Below, one piece after another: positions 1,639-48,045 of a stretch of 64,000 bases of DNA (the stretch's first letter is position 1; the number at the start of each line of letters is the position of its first letter). The notes beneath the pieces are model-generated. The model made no database searches, was not told the origin of the DNA, and worked only from the letters and a program-made list of their open reading frames with translations. Both the position numbers and the translations under genes were made by a program. The stretch is from the NCBI GenBank assembly GCA_002840095.1, contig PGZL01000005.1, positions 124,001-188,000 of the forward strand, in the 5' to 3' direction. This stretch comes from Gammaproteobacteria bacterium HGW-Gammaproteobacteria-1 (lineage in GTDB: Bacteria > Pseudomonadota > Gammaproteobacteria > Thiohalomonadales > Thiohalomonadaceae).

Positions 1639-2220
1639 ATGAAGCTGTTTTCCGCCCTGTACACGCGCGTGATGCGCTGGTCGGCCCACCCCCATGCCGC
1701 CCGCTATCTCGCCACGCTGAGTTTCGCCGAATCCTCGTTTTTCCCCATCCCGCCCGACGTGATGCTGGCGCCCATGGCGCTGGCGCGGCGGGAGCGGGCC
1801 TGGCACTACGCGCTGCTCACCACCCTGGCGTCCGTGGCCGGCGGCGTAGCGGGTTACCTCATCGGCTATTTCGCCTTCGAGCTGGTGGAGCCGCTGATCC
1901 GGCAGGCCGGCTACTGGGAGCGCTACGAGCACGTGCGCCTATGGTTCGACGCCTGGGGCTTCTGGGCCATCTTTCTCGCCGGCTTTTCGCCCATCCCCTA
2001 CAAGCTGTTCACCATTTCCGCCGGCGTCATCGCCATGAATTTTCCGTTGTTCGCCCTGGCCTCGCTCATCGGCCGCGGCGCCCGCTTTTTCATGGTCGCG
2101 GGGCTGATGGTATGGGGCGGGGAGCGCATGGAGCGCAACCTGCGCCAGTACATCGACCGCATCGGCTGGCTGGTGATCCTGGCCGCGGTGGCCGGGTATA
2201 TGATCGTCAGCAATGGCTGA
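1639..2220 (+). CDS. YqaA/DedA-family inner membrane protein
   Basis: A 193-residue polytopic membrane protein of the SNARE-associated/DedA superfamily, YqaA branch. Family features are the FAESSFFPIPPDVMLAPMAL segment near residues 30-49 and a GFSPIPYKLFTISAGV stretch near residue 115. There are several hydrophobic helices. DedA relatives take part in lipid-carrier or lipid flipping and membrane homeostasis; the role of the YqaA branch is not settled. A GTG three bases upstream (1636) is an alternative start. The gene lies between pcm and nlpD and overlaps nlpD by 8 nt. Confidence 0.85.
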   Translation: MKLFSALYTRVMRWSAHPHAARYLATLSFAESSFFPIPPDVMLAPMALARRERAWHYALLTTLASVAGGVAGYLIGYFAFELVEPLIRQAGYWERYEHVRLWFDAWGFWAIFLAGFSPIPYKLFTISAGVIAMNFPLFALASLIGRGARFFMVAGLMVWGGERMERNLRQYIDRIGWLVILAAVAGYMIVSNG

Positions 2221-43759: not shown

Positions 43760-45460
43760 CTAATGACCGGCGCCCGCCAGCACGCGGTGTTCCAGGGTAT
43801 CCAGCAGGCCGACGATTTGCTGCGACAGGGTATCGATGCGCGGATACAGCGCCTTGGCCTCGGCCAGCTTGCCTTCCTGCTTGAAGCGGACGATGTCGCG
43901 GATCGCGCCGTGCAGTTCGGCATGGGGTTTCTCGATGACCCGGAACTCCTCCAGGCTGCCGTATTTCTGCCGGCCTTCACCTTCGTACCACTTGCCCAGC
44001 AGGCAGTCGCGGTGCGACACCGCCTGGCTCTGGGTCAGTGCAGCCTTGCCGGCGAGGAAGTCGCCGACACGGGTTTTCCAGGCCATATGGGCCTGGCGTG
44101 CGGCATCGAAGTCGAAGCCCTTGGTGGACGCGCTCTGGAAGCGGCCGACCGAGCGGCGCAGTCCTTCCGCCAGGCGCACCAGCTCACGGCCGTATTCGGC
44201 GGTCTGATGCGCCGCTTCGGCAGTACCCTCCGAGGCCGTGTTAACCGTGGTCAGGTTGTGGCTCATGGATTCGGCCACCGTGCTCTGTTCTTCCGTGGCG
44301 ACGGCGATCTGCGCGGTCATGTCGCGGATTTCGGTGACGGCGCCGGTGATGGCGCCGATGGCGGCCTGCGCCTGTTCGGCCGATTCCACGTTCTGGCCCA
44401 TTTCGCGCCGGCTGGCCTGCATGATTGCCGCCACCTCGCGCGCGCCGCCTTGCAGCTGCTCGATGATGGTCTGGATTTCGCGGGTGGAATCCTGGGTACG
44501 CTGCGCCAGCACGCGCACCTCGTCGGCAACGACGGCGAAACCGCGGCCGTGCTCGCCGGCACGGGCCGCCTCGATGGCGGCGTTGAGCGCCAGCAGGTTG
44601 GTCTGCCCGGCGATGCTGCCGATGACGTCGAGCACCACGCCGACGTTGTTGCTTTCCTTTTCCAGCCGCGCCATCACTGCCGCCGACTTCTCGATGGTGG
44701 CGGCCAGGCCGCGGCTGGAGGCCAGATTGGCCTGCATCATGGACTGGCCCGCCGCGGCCGATTCGTCCGCCTGCTGGGCGGAGCGGGCGGCACGGTGGGC
44801 ATTGGCGGCCACCTCCTGAATCGACATGGCCATCTCATGCATGGCGGTCGCGATCTGATCGATTTCCCGCTGCTGCACGTGAATGTGATCGGAGCTTTCA
44901 TCGATGACCGCGGCAAGCTGGCGGGTTTCGGCCTCCATCTTGGCGCTCACATGCACCACTTCGTCGACCACGGCCTGCATCTTGTCGGCGAAGCTGTTGT
45001 AGCTGGTGGCCACCTGCGCCGCCTCGTTATTGCCGGAGGCGGGGATACGGATGGAAAGATCGCCGTCGCCGTTGCTGACCTGCTGCAAGGCGTCGACCAC
45101 GATGCTGACCGGCTTGCACACGGCACGGTTGACCAGCGAAATGATCATCAGGGTGAACAGTCCGGCCGCCCCCAGCACCACCAGCAGCGACCTGCCGGCG
45201 GCGTCGATCCCGTTGCGCAGCTGGGCATGCGACTCCTGTGCCAGGGTGCGCAGGCGATCGGCCTGCGCCGGGGCGGTTTCCGGCGCCACCTGTTCGATGT
45301 GCGCCAACTGCTTCTGCAACAATTCCGTTTGCTGGCCGGCCAGATGCTCCTTCAACCGGTCGGCGACATCGGCACCGGCCAGCAATACCAACAGCGCAAC
45401 CAGGACGGCGCTGCCCATCTGTACGTAATATTTCTGTCGTATGGTCAGATTCACCAGCAT
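43760..45460 (-). CDS. methyl-accepting chemotaxis protein with C-terminal CZB domain (copy 1)
   Basis: A 566-residue chemoreceptor. Two membrane helices (about 14-31 and 89-111) flank a short helical periplasmic region of ~57 residues. A HAMP-like linker follows, then the signalling domain with the hairpin tip [20 protein letters not shown]. The C-terminal CZB zinc domain (about 450-560) shows the ligand pattern [14 protein letters not shown] and [14 protein letters not shown] receptors sense zinc or hypochlorite in relatives. It begins 31 bp after a 39-aa microprotein gene, and is a close paralogue of the receptor at 45928. Confidence 0.93.
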
Positions 45461-45491
45461 GAGGGGGCTACTCCGAAAATAGGGACGAGGT

Positions 45492-45611
45492 TCAGGCGTT
45501 GCACCGGCCTATATGGAAAAAGGCGAGCAGGCCGGCAACGCTGGACGAGAGCAAAAGAACAAGTACAAAGGACGACACGGGTGACAACTCAAGAGCGAAC
45601 AGCATGTTCAT
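45492..45611 (-). CDS. 39-aa single-helix membrane microprotein (copy 1)
   Basis: Too short for usual gene callers. It begins [11 protein letters not shown], has a hydrophobic helix over about residues 12-32, and ends FFHIGRC plus two residues, with Cys37. GGAGG lies six bases before the ATG. A homologue of identical length precedes the second receptor (47671-47790). About 27 of 39 residues match, including MNMLF, ELSP and IGRC, and several differing codons are synonymous (the Ser10 and Pro11 codons, for example), which argues for selection on the protein. The gap to the receptor is 31 bp. Function unknown; it could partner the receptor's membrane part. Confidence 0.75.
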
Positions 45612-45787
45612 GACATTCCTCCATGTAGTTGATGGACGGGCAAGGCTACCTGACATTTATTGCAGTATTTCAGTGACGTGACGCTCGGGGGCAGACGCCG
45701 CGGGGCCATGCTCGCCGAATTGATTGTTGTTGGTTGATTCAGCTACCCGTGCCGAAACTGCCTGCACGGCATGACATGGCGCCAGTA

Positions 45788-45803
45788 TTTGACATATGTC
45801 AAA
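45788..45803. promoter_or_regulatory. FNR/FixK-like palindromic box
   Basis: TTTGACATATGTCAAA is a perfect palindrome and matches the TTGA-N6-TCAA core of Crp/Fnr-family sites (FNR, ANR, DNR, FixK). It lies about 177 bp upstream of the copy 1 microprotein ATG. The TTGACA also resembles a -35 hexamer on either strand, so the regulator assignment is tentative. Confidence 0.5.
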
Positions 45804-45890
45804 AAGCACACAAAATGTACGTGATAAGGAGTGGTCTTATAAAGAAAGACCATTATTGTGTCAAGGCAGGGAGAACGACGCAGGGGAGGG

Positions 45891-45920
45891 TGCCGCCACC
45901 GCCCGCAGGCGGTGACGGCA
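45891..45920 (-). terminator. candidate terminator hairpin after receptor copy 2
   Basis: TGCCGCCACCGCC and GGCGGTGACGGCA pair with one mismatch around a CGCA loop. There is no T-tract, so it may act as an mRNA-stabilising stem or a Rho-assisted end. A related CACCGCC/GGCGGTG stem (about 43729-43756) follows receptor copy 1. Confidence 0.45.
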
Positions 45921-45927
45921 TGGGGAA

Positions 45928-47640
45928 CTAGGAGGATGCACCGGCCAGCACGCGCTGCTCCAGGTTGTTCAGCAGACCGACGATTTGCTGCGACAGCGTA
46001 TCGATGCGCGGATACAGTTCTTTGGCCTCGGCCACCTTGCCTTCCTGCTTGAGGCGGACGATGTCGCGGATCGCGCCGTGCAGCTCGGCATGGGGCTTCT
46101 CGATGGTACGGAACTCCTCCAGGCTGTCGTACTTCTGCCGGCCTTCGCCTTCATACCACTTGCCCAGCAAGCAGTCGTGATGGGATACCGCCTGGCTCTG
46201 GGTCAGGGCCGCCTTGCCGGCGAGGAAGTCGCCGACACGGGTTTTCCAGGCCATATGGGCCTGGCGCGCGGCATCGAAGTCGAAGCCCTTGGTGGATGCA
46301 CTCTGGAAGCGGCCTACCGAGCGGCGCAGTCCCTCCGTCAGGCGCACCAGCTCCCGGCCATATTCGGATGTCTGCTGCGCTGCCTCGGCGGTACGTTCCG
46401 ATGCGGCGTTTACCGTCGTCAGGTTCTCACTCATGGACTCGGCCACGGTGCTCTGCTCTTCCGTCGCCACGGCGATCTGCGCAGTCATGTCGCGGATCTC
46501 GGTCACCGCGCCGGTGATGGCGCCGATGGCGGCGTGCGCCTGTTCGGCGGACTCCACGTTCTGGCTCATTTCCTGGCGGCTGGCCTGCATGATCGCCGCC
46601 ACCTCGTGCGCACCGCTCTGCAGCTGCTCGATGATGGCCTGGATTTCACGGGTGGAATCCTGGGTGCGTTGGGCGAGTATGCGCACCTCGTCGGCGACGA
46701 CGGCGAAACCGCGGCCGTGCTCGCCGGCGCGGGCCGCCTCGATGGCGGCATTGAGCGCCAGCAGGTTGGTCTGTCCGGCGATGCTGCCGATGACGTCGAG
46801 CACCACGCCGACGTTGTTGCTTTCCTTTTCCAGCCGCGCCATCACCGCCGCCGACTTCTCGATGGTGGCGGCCAGGCCACGGCTGGAGGCCATATTGTGC
46901 TGCATGATGACCTGGCCGGCGGCGGCGGATTCATCCGCCTTCTGCGCCGCTGCCGCCGCACGGTGAGCATTGGCGGCCACCTCCTGCACAGACATGGCCA
47001 TTTCGTGCATGGCGGTCGCGATCTGATCGATCTCACGCTGCTGGACACTGATATGGGCCGAGCTTTCATCGATGACCGCGGCGAGCTGGCAGGTTTCCGC
47101 CTCCATCCTGGCACTCACATGCACCACCTCGTCGACCACGGTCTGCATCTTGTCGGCGAAGGTGTTGTAGCTCGCCGCCGCCTGCGCGGCCTCGTGGGTG
47201 CCGGTCAGCGGTATGCGTATGGACAGATCGCCGTCGCCGCTGCTGACCCGTTGCAGGGCATCCACCACGGTGTGGACCGGCCTGCATACGGCGCGGCTGA
47301 CCAGAGAAATAATCATCACGGTAAACACCCCGGCGGCCACCAATACCACCAGCAGGGTGGCGACGGCGGCGTCGACGCGGCTGTTCAAGGCCCGCTGGGA
47401 CTCCGCCGCCAGTGACATGGCCTGTTGCTTGAGTTCCGGCGCCTGCTGTGCGAGAAGATCCGGCGCCTTGCGCGACAGTTGCTCGATTTGACGCAACAAC
47501 AGCGTCTGCTGCTGGCCTGCCAGATTCACTTTCAAACTATCGGCAACATCGGCACCGGCCAATGCGACGAGGAGGGCAACCAGCAGGGCGCCGCCCATCT
47601 GGACGTAGTACTTCTGCTTGATGTTCATTTTCATCAACAT
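45928..47640 (-). CDS. methyl-accepting chemotaxis protein with C-terminal CZB domain (copy 2)
   Basis: A 570-residue receptor, tandem paralogue of copy 1. The layout is the same: two membrane helices, a short periplasmic stretch rich in Gln and Leu, HAMP, a signalling domain with [20 protein letters not shown] and a CZB domain with [14 protein letters not shown] and [11 protein letters not shown]. The signalling and CZB parts are nearly identical to copy 1, whereas the periplasmic stretch has diverged. This suggests different inputs feeding the same output. GGGAGG lies seven bases before the ATG at 47640. It starts 30 bp after the copy 2 microprotein. Confidence 0.93.
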
Positions 47641-47670
47641 GGCGAATCCTCCCTGGATGGACAGGCTGCA

Positions 47671-47790
47671 TCAGGCAGCGCAACGGCCAATGCGAAAAAA
47701 TGCATAGAAACCGGCGGCGCTGGACAGCAGCAGCAGCACGGTTACCAGGGATACCAACGGCGACAACTCAATGGTGAACAGCATGTTCAT
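47671..47790 (-). CDS. 39-aa single-helix membrane microprotein (copy 2)
   Basis: Homologue of the protein at 45492-45611, same length. It begins MNMLFTIELSP, has a hydrophobic helix over about residues 12-32, and ends FFRIGRC plus AA. The conserved Cys37 and basic residues at the C-terminal end suggest N-out, C-in topology by the positive-inside rule. AAGGAGG lies six bases before the ATG, an excellent ribosome binding site. The receptor follows after 30 bp. No known family comes to mind. Confidence 0.75.
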   Translation of the reverse strand: MNMLFTIELSPLVSLVTVLLLLSSAAGFYAFFRIGRCAA

Positions 47791-47826
47791 GGCACTCCTC
47801 CTTGTTTTACCTACCTTGGTTTTGCT

Positions 47827-48045
47827 TCAGTATTCCTTGTTGGCAATCAATTCGGCGGAAAGCGGACGGCAGCCCGCCCGGGACAGCGCAGTCGGGCGCA
47901 AAGCCGGGCTCGCGGCAGGTTCCGACATGGACGTCACGGGTTGAATATGAGGTTCCCGGCTTTGGGATGCCTTAGGGAAGGCGGTCCGGGCGTTGCGGAA
48001 AGACTGCGGGGACGACGATGACAGCGGCCGCGTTCCTTGCGACAT
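47827..48045 (-). CDS. possible 72-aa disordered small protein
   Basis: An open frame starting at an ATG with GGAG nine bases upstream, ending 36 bp before the copy 2 microprotein. The product is rich in Ser, Pro, Ala and Arg and shows no domain (starts MSQGTRPLSSSSPQSF). Copy 1 has no counterpart, which argues against a conserved role. It may instead be leader sequence. The remaining 48046-48219 stretch is AT-richer (AATAATTGTATTTACTACTG near 48162) and probably holds the promoter of this cassette. Confidence 0.3.
   Translation of the reverse strand: MSQGTRPLSSSSPQSFRNARTAFPKASQSREPHIQPVTSMSEPAASPALRPTALSRAGCRPLSAELIANKEY

Follow-up and report, generated by a model that had tools for sequence, protein, structure and literature searches.

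A duplicated gene coding a 39-residue predicted membrane microprotein precedes CZB chemoreceptor genes in a gammaproteobacterial genome

Organization of the two cassettes

The window, a stretch of 64,000 nucleotides from Gammaproteobacteria bacterium HGW-Gammaproteobacteria-1 (Thiohalomonadaceae; contig PGZL01000005.1), carries two copies of a short open reading frame (ORF) coding a predicted membrane microprotein, each positioned directly before the gene of a CZB chemoreceptor. The genome of the window is designated G000 and that of its sister species G001. The elements of the two cassettes are listed below, where TM stands for transmembrane helix.

47797..47801, minus strand: ribosome-binding site GGAGG of microprotein copy 2 (direct reading)
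47671..47790, minus strand: microprotein copy 2, 39 residues, single predicted helix, Cys37 (ORF reading, alignment, codon counts, AlphaFold2)
45928..47640, minus strand: CZB chemoreceptor 2, 570 residues, with TM1, a short loop, TM2 with a Cys at the HAMP junction, HAMP, MCPsignal and CZB
45618..45622, minus strand: ribosome-binding site GGAGG of microprotein copy 1 (direct reading)
45492..45611, minus strand: microprotein copy 1, 39 residues (ORF reading, alignment, codon counts)
43760..45460, minus strand: CZB chemoreceptor 1, 566 residues, architecture as in receptor 2

Each microprotein ORF spans 120 nt including the stop codon and codes 39 amino acids. The sequence of copy 2 is MNMLFTIELSPLVSLVTVLLLLSSAAGFYAFFRIGRCAA; copy 1 aligns to it without gaps and is identical at 27 of the 39 positions. 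A Pfam search with both copies found no family at E ≤ 1. The distance from the microprotein ORF to the receptor ATG is 31 bp for receptor 1 and 30 bp for receptor 2, and the receptors themselves are 83% identical, with HAMP, MCPsignal and CZB all scoring above the Pfam cut-offs. The preliminary description of this DNA had reported two minus-strand frames of 120 nt, GGAGG six bases 5' of each ATG, a spacing of 30–31 bp to the chemoreceptor starts, about 27 of 39 identical residues in a gap-free alignment, and receptors of the CZB type. All of these elements are present as described.

Conservation and coding capacity of the microprotein gene

A third homologue of 39 residues, MNMLFAIEFSPVLSVVLSVLLLSSAIGLYAYVRIGRSEV, is encoded in G001, 24 bp before the orthologous receptor gene; this microprotein and its receptor adjoin the same M61 peptidase gene as in the window. 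The three microproteins share 19 invariant residues of 39, including N2, E8, S10, P11, G27 and I34-G35-R36. Identity to copy 2 amounts to 69% for copy 1 and 62% for the G001 protein, so that the microprotein is about as well kept as the receptor TM helices.

Codons were compared in the three microprotein pairs by Nei-Gojobori counting, followed by a Fisher test on rounded counts. The proportions of synonymous and nonsynonymous differences (pS/pN) are 0.66/0.19, 0.51/0.25 and 0.52/0.22, giving ratios of nonsynonymous to synonymous change (dN/dS) of 0.14, 0.36 and 0.29 and Fisher p values for excess synonymous change of 2.5e-6, 0.008 and 0.003; the pairs are not independent and the first one is near synonymous saturation. 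An excess of synonymous change is thus found in all three pairs, in line with the synonymous codon changes noted earlier between the window copies. The microprotein frame has no insertion or deletion in any copy, whereas the flanking non-coding DNA aligns with gaps and has mostly diverged. The likeness of the two window microproteins goes beyond chance because a third copy of the same length exists and because the differences concentrate at synonymous sites. These comparisons indicate that the microprotein gene is real and conserved, and that it is very likely translated.

Distribution of the microprotein and of its receptor

The searches covered overlapping draws of genomes: 95 relatives, 20 genomes of the family, 20 of the order, 369 and 379 of the class and 398 of the phylum. 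A hidden Markov model (HMM) of the microprotein matched two of the 20 order genomes at E ≤ 0.001, namely G000 and G001. Strong matches (E < 1e-20) among the 20 order and 369 class genomes are found only in the same two, with two in G000 and one in G001, and the phylum draw yielded one genome of 398 at E ≤ 1e-6, which is G000. Permissive thresholds brought additional candidates. Three of the 95 relatives matched at E ≤ 0.1; in the third of them, G009, the match lies within a frame of 707 aa. In the family, 4 of 20 genomes matched at E ≤ 1; the matches of G005 and G013 were rejected as microprotein homologues, the latter (L009) being a YgaP-like_TM protein. In the class draw, 112 of 369 genomes matched at E ≤ 0.5; apart from G000 and G001, five of them (G278, G379, G274, G176 and G286) fell below E 0.001. 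The 28 loci representing weak class matches (L127–L154) have no full-length microprotein match, and no chemoreceptor match within pieces of at most 1.5 kb on each side; one of the candidates (L129) is a 26-residue frame lying inside a 423-residue frame. Plasmid and phage searches gave no convincing microprotein homologue.

The receptor was followed by its amino-terminal part. The corresponding profile matched 12 of the 20 order genomes at E ≤ 1e-6, residues 1–174 being covered only in G000 and G001; some CZB domain is present in 19 of the 20. At least 192 of 369 class genomes matched at E ≤ 0.001, and the second class draw gave one genome of 379 at E ≤ 1e-20 (G001). Among the matches listed, full-length ones belong to G000 and G001 only; the others start at residue 31 or later in the class and at residue 23 or later in the order, and correspond mostly to TM2 and HAMP. 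One wider contig scan yielded 36 loci, all matching from residue 67 or later, and viral scans for this part found nothing. Absence elsewhere is not proven because the contig scan requires exact words of 7–8 residues and may omit near relatives of the window. On this sequence evidence the microprotein is, among the genomes sampled, confined to one genus and linked to a single chemoreceptor lineage.

Chemoreceptor starts were also surveyed. A short ORF that is hydrophobic, has its own ribosome-binding site and lies at most 150 bp upstream was found at only three among the 18 chemoreceptor ORFs of G000, two of which (L075, L082) are carboxyl-terminal pieces, and the 14 of G001; Pfam MCPsignal matches number 20 and 14, respectively. 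Over 122 distinct chemoreceptor starts, 21 of them with a CZB-like motif, the microprotein ORF is found at three only; the census is approximate, since starts were picked by rule and some ORFs are fragments. Unrelated hydrophobic short ORFs precede three of the 122 starts (L045, L050 and L111), the one of L111 lying at −109 and being unlike the microprotein. The expectation that homologues would stand upstream of CZB receptors in general was therefore not borne out in the genomes sampled: they occupy only 3 of 21 CZB-type starts, and the wider draws gave no convincing homologue.

Two observations on chemoreceptor genes are of separate interest. L045 and L050, which come from two genomes of the same genus, share a hydrophobic protein of a 60-aa type, coded 149 and 143 bp ahead of a chemoreceptor. 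The CZB chemoreceptor genes at G000:C66:352349-352806 and G000:C29:102477-103006 appear to be split across frames and may be broken genes or assembly errors.

Comparison of the locus among genomes

The locus codes M61, a pentapeptide protein, a 196-aa protein and Fe-ADH in G002 and G003, and M61, the 196-aa protein and Fe-ADH in G004. In these three genomes the flanking M61 and 196-aa genes lie on one contig, and neither the receptor nor the microprotein has a match at E ≤ 0.01 in the stretch they enclose or in the rest of these pieces. In unrooted trees built from three genes of the locus, G000 groups with G003 (FastTree support 0.988, IQ-TREE bootstrap 85); G001 groups with G004, which sits on a long branch (FastTree 0.946, IQ-TREE bootstrap 77). 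The two carrier genomes, G000 and G001, are thus interspersed with non-carriers; if this topology is correct and no transfer of the locus took place, microprotein and receptor were jointly gained or lost on two or more occasions. Together with the presence of both genes in the same two of 20 order genomes, this upholds the pairing of the microprotein with its receptor.

The pentapeptide-repeat gene lies between the M61 and 196-aa genes in G001–G003 (L237, L238, L071 4305-4880). No such gene was seen at the corresponding position of the window, and in G004 the M61 gene directly neighbours the 196-aa gene.

Membrane part of the receptors and history of the duplication

The loop between TM1 and TM2 of the receptors has about 50 residues and changes in length relative to G001. 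Its conservation was compared with that of the helices in 11 reciprocal pairs, the window's included, of which six served as controls; pairs L212 and L215 (mid-protein helices; loops 5/11 and 34/61), L072 (no clear periplasmic part) and L075 (fragment) were dropped. Loop identity to G001 is 0.33 for receptor 1 and 0.48 for receptor 2. The respective values are 0.70 and 0.61 for TM1 and 0.65 and 0.65 for TM2, whose position in receptor 2 was taken as 83–102 while the likely helix is at about 100–119. The six control orthologue pairs have identities of 0.80–0.85 in the periplasmic part and 0.65–0.91 in the helices, the two being preserved to a similar degree. Since the loop of the window receptors diverges and their helices are better kept, a conserved ligand domain in this loop is unlikely. 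A structure model of the receptor had a predicted local distance difference test (pLDDT) score of 51, too poor to be used.

The two receptor genes are not uniformly alike. Their third-position identity, taken segment by segment, is 0.61–0.92 from alignment column 153 on and 0.44–0.66 before it; between the two microprotein copies it is 0.51. Informative sites were sorted into those at which the copies are alike, those at which copy 1 is like G001 and those at which copy 2 is like G001. The counts are 178/73/59 in the carboxyl-terminal part of the receptor, 58/40/57 in receptor residues 1–120 and 15/15/17 in the microprotein. Within the receptor genes (43760–47640), homogenisation of the region from HAMP to CZB but not of residues 1–120 suggests gene conversion. 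The simplest reading is an old duplication followed by later homogenisation of the signalling part, in which the microprotein and the membrane part of the receptor would have stayed distinct as a block.

Helix, topology and cysteine of the microprotein

AlphaFold2 predicts, from two sequences, one helix covering residues 3–38 of the microprotein with a mean pLDDT of 82, and the maximal hydropathy over 19 residues is 2.2–2.3. The protein thus has the size and make-up of small single-pass membrane regulators (less than about 65 aa, one membrane helix). An orientation with the amino terminus outside and the carboxyl terminus inside is predicted only from the charges of E8 and of the carboxyl-terminal Arg. 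The invariant residues have a periodicity peak at 105–110 degrees per residue.

Cys37, called conserved in the preliminary description, is present in both window microproteins but is Ser in G001, so that its conservation is not strict. The junction of TM2 and HAMP has a Cys (RAVC) in both window receptors and a Ser (RAVS) in the G001 receptor. Among 28 receptors or frames with this junction, Cys is found in two, both of the window, and Ser in one, that of G001. The paired Cys/Ser change is a single, suggestive event and may be a coincidence; on this one change, Cys37 may have a role such as that proposed in the preliminary description.

Several weak matches of the microprotein HMM lie within long frames, about 1000 residues in length. 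At six loci (L128, L130, L131, L133, L144 and L151, near 1501–1575) the alignment lies in the first helix of such frames, with 8–13 of 27 residues identical to the microprotein and shared G[LI]YAFxxxGR ends; the four tested (L128, L131, L144 and L151) score as ACR_tran. The microprotein thus has a weak likeness, GLYA[FY]xxxGR[AS]E, to the first helix of RND pumps (Pfam ACR_tran), which may reflect descent or convergence. It differs from them in being a free ORF of 39 residues without a pump and in its flanking charges: charged residues precede the helix in the aligned pump frames but not in the microprotein. The first helix of RND pumps runs from the cytoplasm to the periplasm.

Other elements near the cassettes

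A perfect palindrome, TGACATATGTCA (45790–45801), and an inverted repeat TGGTCTT...AAGACCA (45832–45852) lie between the two cassettes; each is a possible regulator site or hairpin. A promoter/terminator scan gave signal at chance level. Upstream of the microprotein gene, a short ORF on the minus strand (47827–48045) codes 72 residues (MSQGTRP...) and has AGGAG before its ATG. Its G001 counterpart (MSHGPRP..., about 44 residues; L004, about 1650–1784, minus strand) likewise has AGGAG before the ATG, and the two are alike mainly at their starts.

A putative membrane partner of the chemoreceptor

The explanation that we favour, with modest confidence, is that the microprotein is a dedicated single-pass membrane partner which sets or conveys the state of its chemoreceptor; from sequence, a partnership of the two proteins is likely. 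The chemoreceptor and its dedicated 39-residue microprotein would probably be made from one message. The microprotein would insert with its amino terminus outside and its Arg-bearing carboxyl terminus in the cytoplasm, as judged from charge, and a helix face formed by the conserved residues S10/S14, L20/L21, S23/S24, G27, A30 and I34 would pack against TM1/TM2 near the HAMP junction. Such packing would set or convey the signalling state of a receptor whose cytoplasmic end carries a zinc-binding CZB and whose periplasmic part appears to lack a conserved binding domain. Translation, topology, binding and effect on output are the inferred parts of this scheme. The partner role raised in the preliminary description is supported as to a conserved product, one predicted helix and pairing with this receptor; its extension to CZB receptors generally is not.

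A more specific and improbable version takes the microprotein as an obligate membrane subunit of a chemoreceptor without a periplasmic binding domain. In this version Cys37 and the TM2/HAMP Cys of the receptor, both predicted at the cytoplasmic membrane face, would together make up a switch, of thiol or metal type, that is coupled to the zinc/redox CZB. It draws on the fact that where the microprotein Cys is Ser, in G001, so is the receptor Cys.

Several points weigh against a dedicated partner. The sample consists of three sequences from two genomes, at sequence level, and a short gene can be passed on together with an operon neighbour without its product binding that of the neighbour. Clustering of the invariant residues on one helix face is weak (shuffle p 0.052 at 100 degrees). 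The receptors evolve faster overall, with identities of 0.79–0.82 in the rest of the protein versus 0.87–0.95 in the controls, and the loop contrast is not unique because loop identity is likewise low, 0.56, in L215, one of the pairs dropped. Part of the microprotein pattern may be generic for RND-type first helices; because of this likeness to a pump helix that runs the opposite way, the topology, and hence the cysteine switch, is less certain. Finally, receptor 2 has a good ribosome-binding site of its own, GGGAGGA.

Alternatively, the microprotein could be an independent small membrane protein that shares the operon, is inherited along with it and acts on something else than the receptor. 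According to passages of PMC10576120, the targets of small membrane proteins are numerous; the helix resembles that of a pump, and contact between microprotein and receptor rests here on inference. We consider this account rather unlikely: the microprotein is found only with this receptor type, the locus trees call for two or more joint gains or losses of the pair, and each of the receptor paralogues has retained a copy of its own.

It is also unlikely that the ORF serves as a translational leader, in which translation of the short hydrophobic ORF would carry the ribosome with its message to the membrane and supply ribosomes to the receptor start 24–31 bp downstream, the peptide not being needed as a partner. 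GGAGG before all three short ORFs, the short gap to the receptor and the weaker sites of receptor 1 (GGAG at about −13) and of the G001 receptor fit such a function. It is countered by the receptor 2 site mentioned above, by the presence of the short ORF at only 3 of 122 receptor starts and by amino acid constraint along the peptide, which with 19 of 39 residues invariant in three sequences and dN/dS of 0.14–0.36 is not free to vary. An untranslated ORF, conserved by descent or by constraint on RNA, is very improbable: only three sequences are available and copies 1 and 2 are near synonymous saturation, but all three pairs have the synonymous excess, the frame is without indels between diverged flanks, and no Rfam match reaches gathering scores.

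Relation to known systems

The closest likeness of the putative partner is to MgrB, SafA and UgtS, small regulators of the sensor kinase PhoQ, which are likewise membrane proteins (34–65 aa). In passages of PMC10576120, MgrB is described as repressing the membrane receptor PhoQ via contacts along its TM helices; the best reading, by analogy, is that the microprotein would work in this manner. MgrB has two periplasmic cysteines (passages of PMC8534201), whereas the microprotein has one, predicted to be cytoplasmic. It differs further from MgrB, SafA and UgtS in that its target would be a chemoreceptor and that its gene stands directly before that of the receptor and is duplicated with it. It has no Pfam or NCBIfam match at E ≤ 1, these family searches alone setting it apart from the MgrB family, and no sequence match in the PDB; one PHROGs match at E 0.37 was taken as chance.

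The receptors have the HAMP, MCPsignal and CZB order of membrane-bound chemoreceptors with a carboxyl-terminal CZB, which form a described cluster (PMC8262984, in part). The zinc motif of CZB is named 3His/1Cys in passages of PMC13370339; H462, C490, H517 and H521 of receptor 2 are assigned to it and are kept in all three receptors. CZB receptors respond to zinc and oxidants according to passages of PMC13370339 and PMC8262984, and the use of CZB as a redox/zinc input in TlpD and McpA (passages of PMC13370339 and PMC6715182) would also apply here. TlpD and McpA are soluble (same part of PMC8262984), whereas the receptors of the window are predicted in the membrane and preceded by a small membrane protein gene. 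Relative to the described membrane-bound cluster, for which the passages of PMC8262984 mention no microprotein, the present lineage has a short, diverging periplasmic loop.

Full-text literature searches, covering titles, starts of abstracts and passages of one review, with subscription papers mostly outside, returned no small membrane protein acting on a chemoreceptor; the small-protein passages of PMC8534201 concern kinases. Small membrane proteins that tune sensor kinases are already known. If the proposed partnership is true, small membrane subunits also occur in chemotaxis receptors and can be passed on as one unit with them, and the two genes would provide a test system for how transmembrane contacts set the state of a receptor.

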